This document shows positions 4,871-33,396 of a stretch of 42,149 nt of DNA, piece by piece. The first letter of the stretch is position 1. Every line of letters begins with the position of its first letter. The position numbers were made by a program, and so were the translations under genes. The notes beneath the pieces were generated by a model. The model saw only the letters and a list, made by a program, of their open reading frames with translations, did no database searches and was not told where the DNA came from. The DNA lies in the IMG/VR virus record IMGVR_UViG_3300020193_000917, positions 1 to 42,149 of that record. One strand, given 5' to 3'. This DNA comes from a virus.

Positions 4871-6649
4871 ATGGCCGAAACACTTCTTAGCCCAGGAGTT
4901 TTCTTACAAGAAAACGATCTATCGCAAATAACCGCAGGACCTGTTGCAGCCGGTGCTGCTCTCATAGGTCCTACAGTAATTGGTTTAGTTAATATTCCTA
5001 CATTAGTAACATCATACTCACAGTACAAAGCTATTTTTGGTGCTGCGTTCGTATCTGGTGGTGCTAATTTTGAATATTTAACTTCTATTGCTGCACTTAA
5101 CTATTTTGAACAAGGAGGAGAATCCTTATTGGTTACTCGTGTAGCCTCTGGTTCTTATACCGCTGCTACAGCTTCTGTAGTAGGTCTTAATGGAACAGCA
5201 TCATTTACCTTAGACACTTTGTCTGTAGGTACAATAATGAACAACTTTGCTTCTGGTGCAGTAGCTCCATTTGCTTCAGGTTCTAATGGATCACTTCCTT
5301 CAGGTTCTGCAGCTAACGTTCGTTGGGAAGTTACAGGTGTAAATACTGGTTCTGGTGTGTTCAGCCTTGTTATCCGCCGTGGTGATGACTATAATAATAG
5401 CAAAACTATCTTAGAATCTTGGACTAATATGTCTTTAGATCCTAATCAGAATAACTATGTTGCTTATGTAATTGGAGATCAAACTCAAACAGTTGCTTTA
5501 GATTCAACAGGATACTATTACTTACAAACTACAGGTTCTTATAAAAATAATAGCTTATATGTACGTGTATCTTCTGTAGTACAGCCAACTCCTAGTTATT
5601 TCAACCAGACTGGTGTTGCTCAAAATCAATACACAAGTTCTATGCCAGCTCTTGGAACTGGTTCTTATCATGGATCTTTTGGTGGTGCTTCTGGAGTTAT
5701 CTTCGGTTCTTTTGGAAAAGCGGCAGTAAACATGTTTGAAAGTATCCCTAATGCAACTTCTGTAGTAACAACACCGTCTACTAATATTCAAGGTATACAC
5801 CCAGCTGACTATAATATTGCTATCAATCTTCTTGAGAATAAAGACGCATACGACTTTAATGTTATTTATGCACCAGGTTTAACTAGTAAGAATGCATCTT
5901 CTCAAATAGCTAGTCTTTTACTTTTAGCTCAAAATCGTGGTGATAATATCGCTGTAGTTGACATGGTTGGATACGGACAACAACTAAATACAGTAATTAG
6001 TGAAGCTGTAACTTATGATAATAGTTACGGTGCAACTTACTGGCCATGGGTACAAATTCGTTCTCGTGAAACCGGTAAAGTTAATTTTGTTCCAGCTTCT
6101 ACATTAATACCAGCTGTTTACGAATATAATGATAAAGTATCTGCAGAATGGTTCGCTCCAGCAGGTCTTAACCGCGGTTCACTTTCTACAGTGCTTCAGC
6201 CAGAAAGAAAGATCGGTGTAAATGATCGTAACCTTCTTTATCAAGGAAAGGTTAATCCAATTGCTACTTTCCCAGGTGTAGGCACAGTTATCTATGGTCA
6301 GAAAACACTTCAACAGAAGCCATCTGCACTTGATCGTGTAAATGTGCGTCGTTTATTGATTGCTCTTAAATCATTTATTGGTCAACTAGGTGAACAAATT
6401 GTGTTCGAACCAAATACTCAAGTAACTCGCAATAAATTCTTAAGCCAAGTTAACCCATATCTTGAGTCTGTACAACAACGTCAAGGTTTATATGCCTTCC
6501 AAGTTGTAATGGATGAAACTAATAATACACCAGATGTGGTAGATCGTAACAAATTAGTAGGTACAATTTATATACAACCAACAAAGACTGCTGAATTCAT
6601 ACAACTTGACTTTAACATTCTTCCAACTGGTACAACATTTGGTCAATAA
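4871..6649 (+). CDS. Contractile tail sheath protein (T4 gp18-like)
   Basis: Forms the contractile outer tube of the tail. The 592-aa length is close to T4 gp18 (659). Seen: the conserved sheath N-terminus with SPGVFLQE (residues 7-14) and the VAAGAALIGPTVIGLVNIPT strand region. A variable Gly/Ser-rich middle (about 90-290) corresponds to the surface-exposed inserted domains. The conserved C-terminal domain contains ALKSFIGQLGEQIVFEPNT and ends PTKTAEFIQLDFNILPTG, the arm that interlocks sheath subunits. It lies upstream of the tube gene as in other myoviruses, but a 266-aa gene is inserted between them. Confidence 0.93.
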   Translation: MAETLLSPGVFLQENDLSQITAGPVAAGAALIGPTVIGLVNIPTLVTSYSQYKAIFGAAFVSGGANFEYLTSIAALNYFEQGGESLLVTRVASGSYTAATASVVGLNGTASFTLDTLSVGTIMNNFASGAVAPFASGSNGSLPSGSAANVRWEVTGVNTGSGVFSLVIRRGDDYNNSKTILESWTNMSLDPNQNNYVAYVIGDQTQTVALDSTGYYYLQTTGSYKNNSLYVRVSSVVQPTPSYFNQTGVAQNQYTSSMPALGTGSYHGSFGGASGVIFGSFGKAAVNMFESIPNATSVVTTPSTNIQGIHPADYNIAINLLENKDAYDFNVIYAPGLTSKNASSQIASLLLLAQNRGDNIAVVDMVGYGQQLNTVISEAVTYDNSYGATYWPWVQIRSRETGKVNFVPASTLIPAVYEYNDKVSAEWFAPAGLNRGSLSTVLQPERKIGVNDRNLLYQGKVNPIATFPGVGTVIYGQKTLQQKPSALDRVNVRRLLIALKSFIGQLGEQIVFEPNTQVTRNKFLSQVNPYLESVQQRQGLYAFQVVMDETNNTPDVVDRNKLVGTIYIQPTKTAEFIQLDFNILPTGTTFGQ

Positions 6650-25635: not shown

Positions 25636-27546
25636 ATGGAATTAAAGGACGTGCAAACCCCTTGGGGAGAAATTGGTTATATTACATTTAAAAGAACGTA
25701 TGCAAGACGAATAAAAGAAGACGATTCTAATTCCAAGACAGAAGAGTTTTGGCAAGTTGTACAGCGTGAACTTGATGCTTCTGATAAGCAACTTAAAGTA
25801 GGTTTTACTGAAGAAGAGAAAAAAAGGTATGCTGAGATGAGACTCAATTTAAAGTTTTCTACAGCCGGCCGTTTTATGTGGCAGCTTGGCACTAAAACTG
25901 TAGATAAGCTAGGCCTTCCGTCACTACAAAACTGCGCATTTGTTACAGTTAATAATCCTATTAGACCTTTTACATGGGCATTTGAAATGTTGATGCTAGG
26001 CTCAGGTGTCGGATACAATATTCAGAAGCACAATGTTTATCAACTACCTAAAGTAAAAGGAAAAGTAAAGATAGAACGTAAAGATGTAAAAGACGCTGAT
26101 TTCATTGTGCCAGATACAAGAGAAGGTTGGGTAAAACTACTTGGTAAAGTATTGAAAGCCCACTTCTATTCTGGAGAAAGTTTTACATATTCCACGATGT
26201 TAATCAGATCTAAAGGAGCTACTATTAAAGGATTCGGTGGCACAGCATCTGGCCCAGAAGATCTTTGTTGGGGTATTAGTGAGATCAACAAGATATTAAA
26301 TAGTCGTGCTAATAAGAAGCTAAGACCAATCGACTGCTTAGACATTATGAATATTATTGGTATGATAGTTGTAGCAGGAAATGTTAGACGTTCTGCACAA
26401 ATATCTATTGGTGATTATGATGATATTGAGTATTTAAAAGCCAAGCGTTGGGATTTCGGTTCTATTCCTAACTGGAGATCCATGAGTAATAACTCAATAG
26501 TAGCTCCAGAAAATACTAATGATTTACTTCCTGAATTCTGGGAAACTTATAATCAAGGTGAGCCTTATGGTCTTATAAACTTAGAATTATCTAAAACAGT
26601 TGGTCGTACAGGTGAAACACAATATCCTGATCCAGAAGTAGAAGGATTCAATCCTTGTGCTGAGCAATCACTTTCTAATTTTGAAACATGTTGCCTAGCT
26701 GAGGTATATCTGCCTAATATTAATACATATGATGAGTTATTAGAAGCTATTACGTTTACATATCGTATGAACAAACACTCTCTTAATTTACATTGTTTTT
26801 TAAAAGAAACAGAAAATGTTGTTCATAAAAATATGAGAATGGGAATTGGCATGACAGGTATTTTACAAGCCACAGAAGAACAACGTAGTTGGTTAAAAGA
26901 TGCTTACGTTTGGCTTCGTGAGTATGACAAAAACTACTCAGCTAAGCACAAATTCCCAGTGAGTATTAAATTAACTACTGTCAAACCATCTGGCACCTTA
27001 AGTTTGTTAGCAGGCGTAACTCCAGGTGTGCATCCAAACCCAGCAGGCCCATATTATATTCGTCGTGTAAGAATATCATCACAATCACCATTAGTAGATG
27101 TTTGCCGTCAACACGGTTACCACATTGAATACCAAATAAAGTTTGATGGTTCAGAAGATAAGTCTACAATGGTAATATCATTCCCTTGTAAACTACCTCT
27201 AACTACACCTGTTGCTGCCGATTATGACTGGAAAACACAGATGGACATGGTATGTCGTATGCAAGCTGAGTGGAGTGACAATTCTGTAAGTTGTACTGTA
27301 TATTATAAAAAAGAAGACATAGAAGATATCAAGAAGTACTTAAAAGAGCACTTTAGACATAAAATGAAGACGGTATCATTTTTGTTGTATCATGGTCACG
27401 GTTTTGATCAAGCGCCGTACGAGACTATCACAGAAACACAGTATCTTGAAATGATAAAGAGTGTTAAACCAATTACGTCTGTTGAAGTAAAAGAATCAGA
27501 AATGGAACTTATTGAGTGTGAATATGGAAAATGCCCGGTTAAGTAA
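25636..27546 (+). CDS. nrdJ: Class II (adenosylcobalamin-dependent) ribonucleotide reductase
   Basis: 636 aa. Converts ribonucleotides to deoxyribonucleotides using vitamin B12 coenzyme. Seen: N-terminal Cys in LQNCAFVTV (C100), the active-site NPCAEQSL loop (C341, E343), GSGVGYNIQKHNV and SGPEDLCWGISEINKI near the substrate site, TVKPSGTLSLLAGVTPGVHP, and a C-terminal CEYGKC pair (C628/C633, CX4C) for re-reduction. This matches the monomeric RTPR type rather than NrdA/NrdB. The thioredoxin at 41471 could reduce the CX4C tail. The host must supply or import B12. Confidence 0.88.
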   Translation: MELKDVQTPWGEIGYITFKRTYARRIKEDDSNSKTEEFWQVVQRELDASDKQLKVGFTEEEKKRYAEMRLNLKFSTAGRFMWQLGTKTVDKLGLPSLQNCAFVTVNNPIRPFTWAFEMLMLGSGVGYNIQKHNVYQLPKVKGKVKIERKDVKDADFIVPDTREGWVKLLGKVLKAHFYSGESFTYSTMLIRSKGATIKGFGGTASGPEDLCWGISEINKILNSRANKKLRPIDCLDIMNIIGMIVVAGNVRRSAQISIGDYDDIEYLKAKRWDFGSIPNWRSMSNNSIVAPENTNDLLPEFWETYNQGEPYGLINLELSKTVGRTGETQYPDPEVEGFNPCAEQSLSNFETCCLAEVYLPNINTYDELLEAITFTYRMNKHSLNLHCFLKETENVVHKNMRMGIGMTGILQATEEQRSWLKDAYVWLREYDKNYSAKHKFPVSIKLTTVKPSGTLSLLAGVTPGVHPNPAGPYYIRRVRISSQSPLVDVCRQHGYHIEYQIKFDGSEDKSTMVISFPCKLPLTTPVAADYDWKTQMDMVCRMQAEWSDNSVSCTVYYKKEDIEDIKKYLKEHFRHKMKTVSFLLYHGHGFDQAPYETITETQYLEMIKSVKPITSVEVKESEMELIECEYGKCPVK

Positions 27547-27559
27547 TAAAAAACGTTAA

Positions 27560-27566
27560 TATTTAT
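27560..27566 (+). promoter_or_regulatory. ATATTTAT-class putative phage promoter
   Basis: Context gttaa-TATTTAT-tattg, 18 nt before ATG 27585 of the frameshifted cysteine protein gene. Its presence implies that this gene is expressed despite the broken frame. Confidence 0.5.
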
Positions 27567-27584
27567 TATTGTAAAATTGGTAGA

Positions 27585-27778
27585 ATGGCCGAGTTCTTAA
27601 TAATAAAAAAAAAGTAGTAGAAGGAATTCATTATTATATAGAAAATGATAGGGTCATTTTTACGGCCCTTTTTCATTTACAGAGAGGTCAATGTTGTGGA
27701 AACGGATGCCGCCATTGTCCTTATGATCCTAAATATACAAAAGGTACTATAAACATTAATAAAAAATGTAGGAAATAG
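27585..27778 (+). CDS. DUF5522-like CCGNGCRHCPY protein, -1 frameshift needed
   Basis: ATG 27585 opens a 10-codon frame (MAEFLIIKKK) that ends at TAG 27615. The -1 frame from GTA 27614 to TAG 27776 encodes VVEGIHYYIENDRVIFTALF, HLQRGQCCGNGCRHCPYDPK and YTKGT..., a full match to my memory of the small DUF5522-type cysteine proteins common in Bacteroidota. The junction is A AAA AAG (27608-27614) in the correct phase for a -1 slip, exactly the E. coli dnaX heptamer, with a stop as next codon. A slip gives a 64-aa protein. Real recoding, a homopolymer read error or decay are the options. The Cys/His cluster probably binds metal. Confidence 0.6.
27608..27614 (+). promoter_or_regulatory. dnaX-type -1 slippery heptamer
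   Basis: A AAA AAG in zero-frame phase at the end of a run of nine A (27605-27613), followed at once by TAG in frame 0. No stem lies at the usual 5-9 nt distance; the nearest hairpin starts at 27650. Confidence 0.5.
27650..27673 (+). terminator. Terminator-like hairpin inside the DUF5522-like frame
   Basis: AGGGTC (27650-27655), 8-nt loop and GGCCCT (27664-27669), running into five T residues. It looks like the other terminators here but sits within the conserved coding region, so it may be coincidental or may attenuate transcription. Confidence 0.35.
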
Positions 27779-27785
27779 TTTTGTA

Positions 27786-27792
27786 TATTTAT
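27786..27792 (+). promoter_or_regulatory. ATATTTAT-class putative phage promoter
   Basis: Context ttgta-TATTTAT-ctaaa, 13 nt before ATG 27806; reads TATATTTAT. Confidence 0.5.
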
Positions 27793-27805
27793 CTAAAATC
27801 ACATT

Positions 27806-28012
27806 ATGACATTTACTATTACTAGAGAACTTCTCTATCTTGTAGTGACAGTCTTACTTCTTTTAATGCAATTATGGCAGTCAAGAAGAGTCGACGTACT
27901 TAAAAGAGAGATTAAAGATCTTTGGGACCAAATTCATATTATTGCTATATCAGCTGGTAGTACACTACAAAAATTAGAAAAAAAGATCGATGGAAAACAA
28001 GACAAACAATGA
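27806..28012 (+). CDS. Small membrane protein with coiled coil
   Basis: 68 aa. One N-terminal transmembrane helix (ELLYLVVTVLLLLMQLW, about residues 8-24), then RRVDVLKREIKDLWDQIHII and a charged coiled coil ending KIDGKQDKQ. The topology suggests a membrane anchor with a cytoplasmic helix. It overlaps the next gene by 23 nt. No family assigned; similar bitopic small proteins are common in phages. Confidence 0.6.
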   Translation: MTFTITRELLYLVVTVLLLLMQLWQSRRVDVLKREIKDLWDQIHIIAISAGSTLQKLEKKIDGKQDKQ

Positions 28013-28184
28013 ACAGTCAAAAGGTCTTGGTGATACTATTGCTAAAATTACTCATGTAACAGGTATTGATATTATAGTAAAGAAGGTTACTAGTGCCGTA
28101 GGTAAAGAAGACTGCGGTTGTAATAAACGCCGTGAAAAGCTAAATGACCTATTTCCTTATAAGACTGAAGATAAAAAAGACTAA
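27990..28184 (+). CDS. Small conserved CGC-motif phage protein
   Basis: 64 aa. GLGDTIAKITHVTGIDIIVK (residues 12-31) is followed by EDCGCNKRREKLNDLFPYKT (45-64 region). The CGCxKRREKLNxxFPY pattern recurs, from memory, in many phages of Bacteroidota and other hosts without a known function. The two Cys (C-G-C) might bind metal with a partner. It overlaps the membrane protein gene and is followed 8 nt later by PolA. Confidence 0.65.
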   Translation: MENKTNNEQSKGLGDTIAKITHVTGIDIIVKKVTSAVGKEDCGCNKRREKLNDLFPYKTEDKKD

Positions 28185-28192
28185 TCAAGTTT

Positions 28193-30496
28193 ATGAATAA
28201 AAGTTATGTTACGGTAAGGTCTCTTGATACACTAAAAGAGATGGTTGATCACATTAAGTCGCACGACCTTATTTCATTTGACACAGAAACAAACAGCTTA
28301 AATCCTCGTAAAGGTAAGATTATTGGCTTCTCAGTATCAGCTGAAGTTGGTAAAGGCTTTTATATGCCTACTATGATCTGTGTTGATGGTGAATTACAAG
28401 ACGCTTATATTAATGAAAAATTATGTCATGACATTGCAAAGAAGACTATTTCGCTTTTAATTGGAAAAAAGCTTGTGATGCACAACGCATCATTTGATTG
28501 TAGATTTGTTAAATGCTTTTATGGAATAGACTTGCTGTCTAGTTTATATGTCGATACACTATTATTAGTACATACAGTACGTGAAGAAGGTGCAGGATTT
28601 ATGGCTGGTTCATCATTTGGCTTAAAAGATATTGCTAAGACTATTCAAAAAGATATCGGTCTAGATATTGAGCAAGCTGCAAATGAAGAACAGTTGAAGA
28701 TGAAAGAGTCTATTAAGAATAACGGTGGATCAATTACACGTGAAAATTATGAGATATGGAAAGCAGATCTTGAACTATTATCAGAGTATGCATCAGCAGA
28801 TACTGACTTGACTCTTAGAATATATTACTACTTCATGAATACACTAAAAGAAGAAGGACTGGAGAAGTTTTTCTTTGAAGACGAGGTAATGCCTGTCTAT
28901 AAAGAGGTAACTATTCCTATGGAGATGGTTGGTATGAAGATAGACATTGATCTTATAAATACTAGTCGTATTAAAATTATAGAAGAGCTACAAAAGTATT
29001 CTGATCTTGTTATCAAAGAGTTGTTGAAGCATGAGTCTGTACGTGCTTGGGTTATTATGAAAGCACTAGATGCATATCCACCTAATAACAAAGGTACATT
29101 TGCTCAAGAGCTTTGTCGTGAAGCTAACCTAGATCTTGAAGTGTCTAATAAAACACAAAAGCACAGCTTAACACAATCAGCTTTGATCAGACTTCCTGAA
29201 TCACCATACAAACATTTTTTATTACGTGGTGATCAATCTGTACTTGATAAAGATTTTATAACTAAGATTAGTCTTAGACTATGGAAAGAAGATAATGATG
29301 GACAATTCTTTAATATACAATCTAAAGATCAGTTAGGAGAAATTGCTTTCGGTGTACTTGGTATTAAATTTAAAGCCACTACAAAGACAGGTAAGCCACA
29401 GTTTGATGATGATGCTGTGCAATCTATTGCTAACAAGTTTAATTGGGCAAAGAACTTACGTATCTACAACCGACTACTAAAGATTAAATCAACATACATG
29501 GACCGTTTTCTTGACAATCAAGAAGATGGCCGATACTACTTCTATTACAAACAACATGGTACTGTGTCTGGTCGTTACGGTTCAGACGCTCAACAGCTAC
29601 CTAGACCTAAAGAAGAAGGAGATGATGAGCCTATTGTTATAGAGTACAACAACTTAATTCGTAAATTCTTTATATCAGAAGAACATAACATATTTATTGA
29701 CTGTGACTATGAATCACTTGAGCCGCATGCATTTGCTCACGTATCAGGTGACGAAGGCTTGAAAGATATTTTTCGTAATAACTGGGACTTCTATTCTACT
29801 ATTGCAATCAAAACAGAAGGGCTTACTCAATATTCACCAGACAAAAATGTGCCTAACTTCTTACGTAAGCTAGAACCTAAACTTAGAAATAAAGCTAAAG
29901 CGTACGCACTAGGTATACCTTATGGTATGGGAGCTTATGCTCTTGGTATGAATTTAGGAATATCAACAAAAGATGCTAAAAAACTAGTTGATGGTTATTT
30001 GAATGGATTTCCTGAACTCAAGAAGTGGATGGAAAGATCTAAGAAACAGGCTAAAGAGCAAGGTTTTATTAAAACTCAAGTTGGTCGTATTCGCCACTTA
30101 CCAAAAGTAAAAGCTATCTACGATAAGATAGGTGACGATCTACTTAATTGGAATATGAAGAGAGCAATGGAACGTCAGTATGGAGTCGAAAGAATCAAGA
30201 ACTTAAGTCGTGACTATACCAATGGACTTAATAATGCATGTAATGTTCAGATTCAAGGCCTAGCGGCTTCAATTGTAAACCGTGCAGCTTTAGCTATTAA
30301 CCGTAAGTTTCAACAGATGGGTATTAATGGTTGGGTATGTGCACAAATCCATGACCAGTTGGTAATTGAGGTAGAACACTCAAGAGCAGAAGAAGCGGCC
30401 AGGATCGTCCAGGATTTGATGGAGAACACAACCAAGCTTAGTATCTCATTGAAAGCGCCACCAGCTCTAGCCAGTAATCTCAAAGACGGACATTAA
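28193..30496 (+). CDS. polA: Family A DNA polymerase with 3'-5' exonuclease
   Basis: 767 aa replicative polymerase. The exonuclease domain begins with FDTETNSLNP (D30, E32) and continues with MHNASFDCRFV and YASADTDLTLRIYYY. Polymerase motif A is DYESLEPHAFAH (Asp505, Glu510), motif B RNKAKAYALGIPYGMG (R565, K569, Y577-G578), motif C IHDQLVIEVEH (H720-D721-Q722; the usual Glu is Gln). The residue matching E. coli Phe762 is Leu573. No 5' nuclease domain is fused; that activity is the separate gene at 22859. A family A enzyme replaces the family B gp43 of T4. Confidence 0.92.
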   Translation: MNKSYVTVRSLDTLKEMVDHIKSHDLISFDTETNSLNPRKGKIIGFSVSAEVGKGFYMPTMICVDGELQDAYINEKLCHDIAKKTISLLIGKKLVMHNASFDCRFVKCFYGIDLLSSLYVDTLLLVHTVREEGAGFMAGSSFGLKDIAKTIQKDIGLDIEQAANEEQLKMKESIKNNGGSITRENYEIWKADLELLSEYASADTDLTLRIYYYFMNTLKEEGLEKFFFEDEVMPVYKEVTIPMEMVGMKIDIDLINTSRIKIIEELQKYSDLVIKELLKHESVRAWVIMKALDAYPPNNKGTFAQELCREANLDLEVSNKTQKHSLTQSALIRLPESPYKHFLLRGDQSVLDKDFITKISLRLWKEDNDGQFFNIQSKDQLGEIAFGVLGIKFKATTKTGKPQFDDDAVQSIANKFNWAKNLRIYNRLLKIKSTYMDRFLDNQEDGRYYFYYKQHGTVSGRYGSDAQQLPRPKEEGDDEPIVIEYNNLIRKFFISEEHNIFIDCDYESLEPHAFAHVSGDEGLKDIFRNNWDFYSTIAIKTEGLTQYSPDKNVPNFLRKLEPKLRNKAKAYALGIPYGMGAYALGMNLGISTKDAKKLVDGYLNGFPELKKWMERSKKQAKEQGFIKTQVGRIRHLPKVKAIYDKIGDDLLNWNMKRAMERQYGVERIKNLSRDYTNGLNNACNVQIQGLAASIVNRAALAINRKFQQMGINGWVCAQIHDQLVIEVEHSRAEEAARIVQDLMENTTKLSISLKAPPALASNLKDGH

Positions 30497-31755: not shown

Positions 31756-33396
31756 ATGGGTACAACTAAAAGTTTTTTTGGAATCGAACTTAAAGAAAAA
31801 CTGTTACAAGGTATAGAGAAGTTAAACAACTCTGTATCATCAACATTAGGGCCAGGTGGCCGTACTGTTTTGATTCGTGAACAAAATGGTGAAGTTAAAG
31901 TTACAAAAGATGGTGTAACTGTAGCTAAAGCTTTTCATAAATTAGAAGACGATATCGAAGACCTAGGTGCACAACTTGTTAAGCAAGTTAGTATCAAGAG
32001 TGCAAATGAAGCAGGTGATGGTACTACCACATCTACTTTGATTGCGACTGAGCTTGTTAAGCAAGGTCTGAAAGAGATTCGTCAAGGTGTAAACGCTGTA
32101 GAAATTAAGAATGAGATCGACAACATTGTGAATCAAATTGTTGAAGAGATCAAAGAGTTGGCTACAGAAGTATCATCAGAAGAGCAGATTAAACAAGTTG
32201 CAACTATATCAGGTAACAACGATTCAGAGGTTGGGAACTTGATAGCCGAGGCTCTTGATAAAGTAGGGCGTGATGGTATTGTCACAATTGAAGAGTCTAA
32301 GTCAGGCGAAACTACTCTTGAAGTTGTAGAAGGTATGCAATTTGATCGTGGTTACAAATCACCTTATTTTGTAACAAACAACACGACAATGCAAGCTGTG
32401 CTTGACAATCCTTATATCCTACTTTATGATGGCCGTATTTCTACTGCACAAGAACTACTGCAAGTACTAACTAAGGCTAACTCTGAGAATAAATCGATAT
32501 TAATTATTGCTGAAGATATTGGAGACGAAGCTTTAGCAACACTTATTGTAAACAAGATGCGTGGGATCGTGCAAGTATGTGCAGTAAAAGCACCAGACTT
32601 TGGAGAGCGCAAAACTCTTATCTTAGAAGACATTGCTGTCTTGACTGGTGGTCAAGTGATATCTAAAGACAAAGGCTTGAAGTTAGATAAACTAACTACA
32701 CAACAACTATCACAGTTTTTAGGTACAACTAGACTTGTTACTGTATCTAAAGAAGAGACTACTATCATTGATGGTAAAGGTGATGAGAAAGCAATCGCTA
32801 ATCGTGCAATAGAAATCAAAAATCAAATTGATCAAGCTACTTCATTTTATGAGAAAGAGAAGTTACAAGAGAGACTTGGTAAGTTGGTCGGTGGTGTTGC
32901 TATCATCTCTGTTGGAGGTAATAGTGATATTGAGATTAGAGAAAAAAAATATCGTGTAGAAGATGCTTTATTTGCAACTAAAGCAGCATTAGCCGACGGT
33001 ATTGTTCCAGGCGGTGGTGTAGCATTGTTAAGAGCTGCAAAGTTAGGCAATCTTAGTTTTGATAATAAAGTAGATTTTAATGATAACTCTAACATCGTAA
33101 CTGCTAGAATTATATTGAAAGCAGCACTCGTTGCACCTTTCATCAAAATATTATCAAATGCTGGTATTGATAACTGGTGGGAATTTATTCCAAATGAAGG
33201 TGAAGTGTATGACGTTAAGAATTATGCAACTGTCAATGCATTAGAAGCAGGTATCATTGACCCAGCAAAAGTAGTGATAACAGCCCTCAAGAATGCATCT
33301 TCTGTTGCTGGCACAATCTTAACCACAGAATCAGTTGTGTTCGAAAAGAAAGATAAGGACGAGAAAGGACAAGATCATATGATGAGTATGATGTAA
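31756..33396 (+). CDS. groEL: GroEL chaperonin
   Basis: 546 aa, essentially full length (E. coli 548). Seen: nucleotide motif GDGTTT (87-92) and GPGGRTV (32-38), apical segment FDRGYKSPYFVTNNTTM, the equatorial return GGVAIISVGGNSDIEIREKK and the RVEDALFATKAALADGIVPG loop with the catalytic-type Asp. The C-terminal tail is DHMMSMM instead of the Gly-Gly-Met repeats. All core ATPase residues I can place are kept, so it is likely active. A complete phage GroEL is uncommon and suggests that this phage folds a large or difficult protein. Confidence 0.93.
   Translation: MGTTKSFFGIELKEKLLQGIEKLNNSVSSTLGPGGRTVLIREQNGEVKVTKDGVTVAKAFHKLEDDIEDLGAQLVKQVSIKSANEAGDGTTTSTLIATELVKQGLKEIRQGVNAVEIKNEIDNIVNQIVEEIKELATEVSSEEQIKQVATISGNNDSEVGNLIAEALDKVGRDGIVTIEESKSGETTLEVVEGMQFDRGYKSPYFVTNNTTMQAVLDNPYILLYDGRISTAQELLQVLTKANSENKSILIIAEDIGDEALATLIVNKMRGIVQVCAVKAPDFGERKTLILEDIAVLTGGQVISKDKGLKLDKLTTQQLSQFLGTTRLVTVSKEETTIIDGKGDEKAIANRAIEIKNQIDQATSFYEKEKLQERLGKLVGGVAIISVGGNSDIEIREKKYRVEDALFATKAALADGIVPGGGVALLRAAKLGNLSFDNKVDFNDNSNIVTARIILKAALVAPFIKILSNAGIDNWWEFIPNEGEVYDVKNYATVNALEAGIIDPAKVVITALKNASSVAGTILTTESVVFEKKDKDEKGQDHMMSMM

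Follow-up and report, generated by a model that had tools for sequence, protein, structure and literature searches.

The stretch of DNA analysed here (the window, 42,149 nt) is part of the genome of a tailed double-stranded DNA phage, as indicated by a tail sheath gene (Pfam; PHROG tail sheath, E = 6.4e-70). Pfam also identifies genes for a DnaB-type helicase, a class II ribonucleotide reductase, a family A DNA polymerase, Cpn60, Hsp20 and Cpn10. No tRNA was found in the window. The region of interest is on the plus strand and begins with the class II (B12-type) reductase gene (25636..27546; Pfam Ribonuc_red_lgC 1.9e-14, RNR-II_ins_dom 2.7e-13), whose stop codon is at 27544–27546. Right after it comes the site described below. 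On the other side of the site is the gene for a 68-residue protein (27806..28012, plus strand), which has its own copy of the upstream motif ATATTTAT and, on comparison of homologues, is a conserved neighbour in close relatives.

The site consists of two overlapping reading frames. The ATG at 27585–27587, the presumed start codon, opens a short ORF (27585..27617, plus strand) that translates as MAEFLIIKKK and is then closed by two consecutive TAG codons from 27615. The second frame, which is −1 relative to this ATG, encodes a DUF5522 domain and runs from stop to stop over 27584..27778 (plus strand). It is closed upstream by a TAG at 27581–27583, is open from 27584, ends with a stop at 27776–27778, and reads NGRVLNNKKKVVEGIHYYIENDRVIFTALFHLQRGQCCGNGCRHCPYDPKYTKGTININKKCRK. 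It has no canonical start codon: no ATG, GTG or TTG is found in this frame of the window ahead of the conserved part. The two frames overlap only at 27585–27614, a stretch of 30 nt, which contains a run of nine adenines (A9, 27605..27613, plus strand), the presumed slippage site. The end of the run forms the slippery heptamer A_AAA_AAG (27608–27614) in the phase of the ATG, with the zero-frame stop directly after it. An ATT at 27626 lies in the body frame, 5 nt past the second TAG and just ahead of a conserved HYY. The earlier note, made from the letters alone, had described this arrangement of frames and the phase of the heptamer, and the translation bears out both. The frame break appears to be a real feature of the DNA.

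The motif ATATTTAT (27559..27566, plus strand) was also correctly placed by that note, 18 nt ahead of the ATG. It recurs ahead of many gene starts. The window contains 21 copies (17 on the plus strand and 4 on the minus strand) against 9.1 expected, and none of 100 shuffled sequences had as many. Ten of the 17 plus-strand copies lie 3–25 nt ahead of a listed gene start (a figure that includes the gene studied here, which was added by hand), and four more lie 13–20 nt ahead of an ATG opening an ORF, these being 60, 142, 73 and at least 129 codons long. The remainder are two copies inside genes and one located 82 nt from the next start. Examples are at window positions 27559, 27785, 4842 and 8073, and the motif is also found in relatives, ahead of the MPITL cassette described below. 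This distribution suggests that ATATTTAT is a promoter or leader element of the phage group. Since a spacing of 18 nt is typical of the arrangement of motif and start, the ATG at 27585 is a credible start codon.

The body frame matches Pfam DUF5522 (PF17653) with a score of 68.9 bits (E = 3.9e-19; body-frame residues 8–49; gathering score 25 bits). The Cys/His signature that had been noticed in it is therefore part of a true coding sequence or of the remnant of one. The DNA from 27400 to 28300 has no match in 50,697 phage records, and at the protein level the only match was a weak one to Microcystis phage MaAM05, at 51% with 70% of the query covered. The DUF5522 frame at 27584–27778 was not assigned to any PHROG family at E 0.001, and Rfam gave only sub-threshold matches near the site. 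One scan of IMG/VR, on the other hand, returned 388 stretches that encode DUF5522, and many of the loci that were read by eye adjoin the end of a class II reductase gene. In the literature searched, no mention of DUF5522 by name was found, nor anything relevant on recoding in Bacteroidetes or Flavobacterium phages.

Viral DUF5522 loci were gathered using three protein queries, and loci of the neighbouring genes using two. The three DUF5522 scans contributed the best 80 of 94, the best 80 of 271 and the best 80 of 388 matches, and so do not amount to a census; contigs that are nearly identical were counted as separate loci whenever they differed anywhere in the compared stretch. A standard start was defined as an ATG, GTG or TTG in the body frame, no more than 40 codons ahead of the conserved YY. 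The count leaves out 11 of the 240 scan loci, two of which (L045 and L300) lie too near the end of the locus, while nine (L194, L195, L203, L225, L229, L233, L242, L249 and L255) do not have the motif. Eight distant relatives from a scan of bacterial genomes (L179–L186) were also left out because they are cellular.

Among the 144 distinct viral loci examined, 102 have an ATG in the body frame, 39 have only GTG or TTG, and three have no standard start. A standard start is thus present in 141/144, the exceptions being the window, L117 and L206. If the start has to be more than two codons ahead of YY, four of the 144 are without one, the fourth being L122, which otherwise passes only by virtue of a GTG two codons before YY. 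A narrower motif, which misses variants such as CCGTGC, gives 141 distinct loci with very similar numbers (100 ATG, 38 GTG or TTG, 3 none). The A9 run is absent from the 5′ end in L117, L122 and L206, so these loci do not share the site of the window. A-rich 5′ ends are not unusual in the family: a run of eight or nine A before YY is found in seven of the 144 loci, the window included, and in the window alone it is A9. The alignment of homologues that the earlier note had proposed as a check therefore goes against a shared recoding site: the frame is uninterrupted in 141/144, and the heptamer site does not recur in the start-less others. The frame break appears to be real but to be found in one lineage only, among the loci examined.

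The closest relative examined (L124/L083) has 94% identity to the window in the reductase (residues 83–636) and 91% in the 68-residue neighbour. Its DUF5522 frame is open, with an ATG 1 nt past the reductase stop codon, and the 5′ end seen in the window has no counterpart in L124. In five other relatives (L096, L097, L098, L099 and L100), an ORF of 212–235 residues starting MPITL is located between the reductase and DUF5522, and L101 has a 40-residue version of it. All of these loci encode the same body downstream of a class II reductase, with or without the cassette between; each of them, unlike the window, offers a standard start codon in the frame of the body. The cassette follows directly after the reductase and has a near-constant start (MPITL or MPITLSNT), the remainder being variable, from 40 to 235 residues. 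The idea that the ATG at 27585 is a remnant of this cassette was also considered, and when the leader was compared with the loci by short words, no supporting match was listed. Many of the reductase loci have no DUF5522 motif in the 420 nt past the reductase, and DUF5522 looks like an accessory gene.

Selection on the body was estimated over 47 codons only, using 15 pairs, of which three were saturated. The body of the window retains the complete DUF5522 signature, and in comparison with L124 it shows neither a stop nor an indel over the 47 codons. The dN/dS values are 0.25 for the window and L124, well below 1, 0.124 for the window and L096, and 0.048 for the window and L099, while the nine defined pairs of intact relatives range from 0.048 to 0.110. 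The window–L124 value is higher than those of the intact pairs, and together with the window–L096 value this fits relaxed constraint. Changes assigned to the window branch are five silent and six affecting the amino acid, and those on the L124 branch three silent and one affecting the amino acid. Taken together, the dN/dS values and the changes on the window branch suggest that the body has been constrained through much of its history and perhaps less so of late, although the numbers are small.

Our proposal is that the frame of an accessory gene has been broken at a homopolymer in this lineage specifically, and that slippage of RNA polymerase on the A9 run makes the break tolerable; we give this reading a probability of roughly 0.5. 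In this lineage the DUF5522 gene has as its 5′ end a stretch past the reductase that carries ATATTTAT and an ATG one base out of the body frame. RNA polymerase would slip on A9 and add one A in a share of the transcripts, for a net −1 reading, and the full-length 64-residue protein would most likely be produced in low to moderate amounts. The ribosome, by slipping on A_AAA_AAG, may contribute to the same product. Should the 64-residue protein be made, slippage of the polymerase explains it no less well than slippage of the ribosome. The break would then be an accident of this lineage, tolerated via slippage, and no evolved signal of the DUF5522 family. What is observed is the frame break, the A9 run, a second contig with the same run, the intact relatives and the conserved body; the slippage, the expression and the tolerance are what we infer.

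The junction contains a homopolymer of the length concerned, at least about nine A or T, in the form of the A9 at 27605–27613. Polymerase slippage in bacteria is described as efficient in vivo on nine A or T (PMC5009743), with about 50% full-length product from the nine T of Thermus thermophilus dnaX, and slippage on poly(A) is described there as correcting 12–50% of the transcripts of broken endosymbiont genes. As in those genes, the run in the window is of about nine nucleotides, is located just before the zero-frame stop, and insertion of one A would give access to the −1 frame. In contrast to them, the site in the window belongs to a single lineage and is close to the start, the stop coming after only 10 codons. 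Another interrupted gene is Citrobacter rodentium tssM1, likewise with an A run ahead of a premature stop, where slippage is about 20% and where the account in PMC4256274 reports no ribosomal-frameshift stimulators; it differs from the window in having a longer run (A11) and in that both products were shown to be needed. For bacterial polymerase, poly(T) is reported to provoke more slippage than poly(A) (PMC6260861), which counts against slippage here. The plus strand of the window has one other A9 run (2165–2173), and since this lies inside a continuous 343-residue ORF, A9 by itself is no signal.

An A+U-rich hairpin is predicted around the ATG (27562..27607, plus strand), formed by perfectly paired 9-nt arms at 27562–27570 and 27599–27607, the 3′ arm extending into the A9 tract. 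Its fold is better than expected in both stretches that were shuffled (z = −2.26, with 4/200 shuffles as good, and z = −3.01, with 2/200). Of 50-mers taken from the window, 2 of 800 matched for G+C fold as well, as do 55 of 1000 unmatched. There are 15 plus-strand runs of at least seven A. One other (at 32942) has a stronger fold, which stops well short of the run, and at several more a weak fold finishes within 1–3 nt of the tested end. In a Roseiflexus IS described in PMC5009743, slippage is driven by a nascent hairpin adjoining the run, and the hairpin abutting the 5′ side of A9 could similarly aid slippage, although it was noticed post hoc and no diverged relative was found with the same 5′ end. 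If ATATTTAT is a promoter, transcription may begin downstream of the 5′ arm. One might go further and see in the 5′ end an evolved slippage switch, in which the hairpin formed from ATATTTAT and abutting A9 sets the amount of DUF5522 protein: for instance, read-through transcripts from the reductase would hold the complete hairpin, and transcripts started at the motif would be without its 5′ arm. We regard such a switch as improbable.

Our reading, a break tolerated via slippage, has to be weighed against four others, of which a recent pseudogene ranks next and the remaining three carry little weight each. One of these is an error of assembly or sequencing in the A run, in that homopolymers are error-prone and L206, L117 and L122 are each known from single contigs with broken or start-less frames. 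Against this, a second contig (IMGVR_UViG_3300020197_000129) is identical to the window over 901 nt at the site. The two contigs show three differences in 26,769 nt, each a C in the second contig and a T in the window, and none of them in the A run, which is A9 in both (n = 2, with no variation seen). Since the second contig differs by substitutions elsewhere and has the same A9, a lone sequencing error is unlikely, and the concern raised in the earlier note about nine A in a row is largely removed, with the qualification that the samples of the two assemblies are possibly not independent. A search of viral contigs with a degenerate leader pattern allowing a variable A run matched only the known second contig. 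Moreover the whole 5′ end is unlike that of the relatives, beyond the run alone, and error has become a very unlikely explanation. A programmed −1 ribosomal frameshift of the dnaX type, which was the proposal of the earlier note, has in its favour the heptamer in phase and the stop directly after it. The frameshift of Escherichia coli dnaX uses a structure 3′ of the heptamer and a Shine–Dalgarno-like element upstream. The window shares with it the heptamer and the phase, but has no 3′ structure beyond chance, no such upstream element seen, and a site that is not conserved. In a pseudoknot-free model, the 101 nt downstream (27615–27715) fold close to chance (z = −1.14, 27/200 shuffles as good), which gives no sign of a stimulatory structure shortly downstream. 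There is no stem at a spacing of 5–9 nt, as had been noted; a weak stem 2 nt past the heptamer is absent from the centroid, and another predicted stem overlaps the end of the heptamer. By eye, no AGGA-like stretch is seen 8–14 nt upstream. The heptamer AAAAAAG is also common, with 27 plus-strand copies in the window, and is in phase in seven listed ORFs that are unbroken, so on its own it means little. The break is absent from 141 of the 144 homologues examined, including the nearest relative L124/L083, which leaves the proposal unsupported. The programmed class as set out in PMC3711429 calls for five or more genes with a conserved site, and as there is no conserved site in at least five genes here, the break is not classed as programmed. 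Ribosomal frameshifting of this kind is thus an improbable explanation.

The main rival is that the gene is a recent pseudogene, a dispensable gene silenced by an indel in the homopolymer or by a rearranged 5′ end, with a body that has yet to decay. This is a serious alternative, though we consider it somewhat less probable than tolerance through slippage. Intact starts in 141/144 homologues are what it would lead one to expect, as are the many reductase loci where the following 420 nt show no DUF5522 motif and the raised dN/dS of the window–L124 pair, and homopolymers are sites of ordinary indels, so that a dead gene, too, would be expected to have A9 at its break. The loss of one base breaks another homologue, L206, in comparison with L209/L215. 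However, the body carries no further lesion, 5/11 of the changes on the window branch are silent, which is not a small share, and some slippage at A9 would be hard to avoid. It is also conceivable that translation of the body begins at a codon other than the standard ones, for example through re-initiation at the ATT at 27626, which is in frame, 5 nt past the second TAG and immediately ahead of the conserved HYY. L117 and L122 are also without a standard start upstream of that point. But these are few loci, an ATT or similar codon at this position is simply a conserved I/V codon, and no properly spaced ribosome site is seen, and we consider this start very doubtful.

If the transcripts do slip, this would be one more phage gene kept partly alive by polymerase slippage. 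It would also be a warning that phage genes from metagenomes broken at an A9 ought not to be dismissed as errors or taken for programmed frameshifts before their homologues have been checked. If they do not slip, the locus is a case of ordinary recent gene loss.

It is worth adding some observations on other DUF5522 loci. In L117 and L122 (about 4900–5000), DUF5522 is next to the reductase with no standard start ahead of its conserved part; in each, an ATA AAG in frame lies close to where the start would be expected, L122 having an ATC as well, and initiation at AUA or AUC is possible. Comparison of L097 (about 5550–5620) with L098 shows that the stretch from the C-terminus of DUF5522 into the start of the 68-residue neighbour is missing, such that both genes are cut. 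In L104, L105 and L206, a conserved ORF of some 20 codons (MK, DN.VQNI.N.IY..IKGNR) is visible by eye directly past the reductase stop. Lastly, 21 of the 142 distinct DUF5522 loci, and in a variant form L301, have a G+C stem resembling a terminator about 90 nt ahead of the CC motif, as in AAGGGAGAAG-loop-CTTCTCCCTT followed by a T-rich stretch. Examples are L070:1931-2020, L209:1-120, L217, L272, L312, L338 and L345. The stem lies mostly inside the open DUF5522 frame, and may be a terminator or attenuator of the reductase through which the next gene is translated. The base missing from L206 (about 1440–1520), relative to the closely similar L209/L215, is in the region of this stem. The arms vary by lineage, such as AAGGGTCAAG/CTTGACCCTT in L217, in rows that were picked for pairing.
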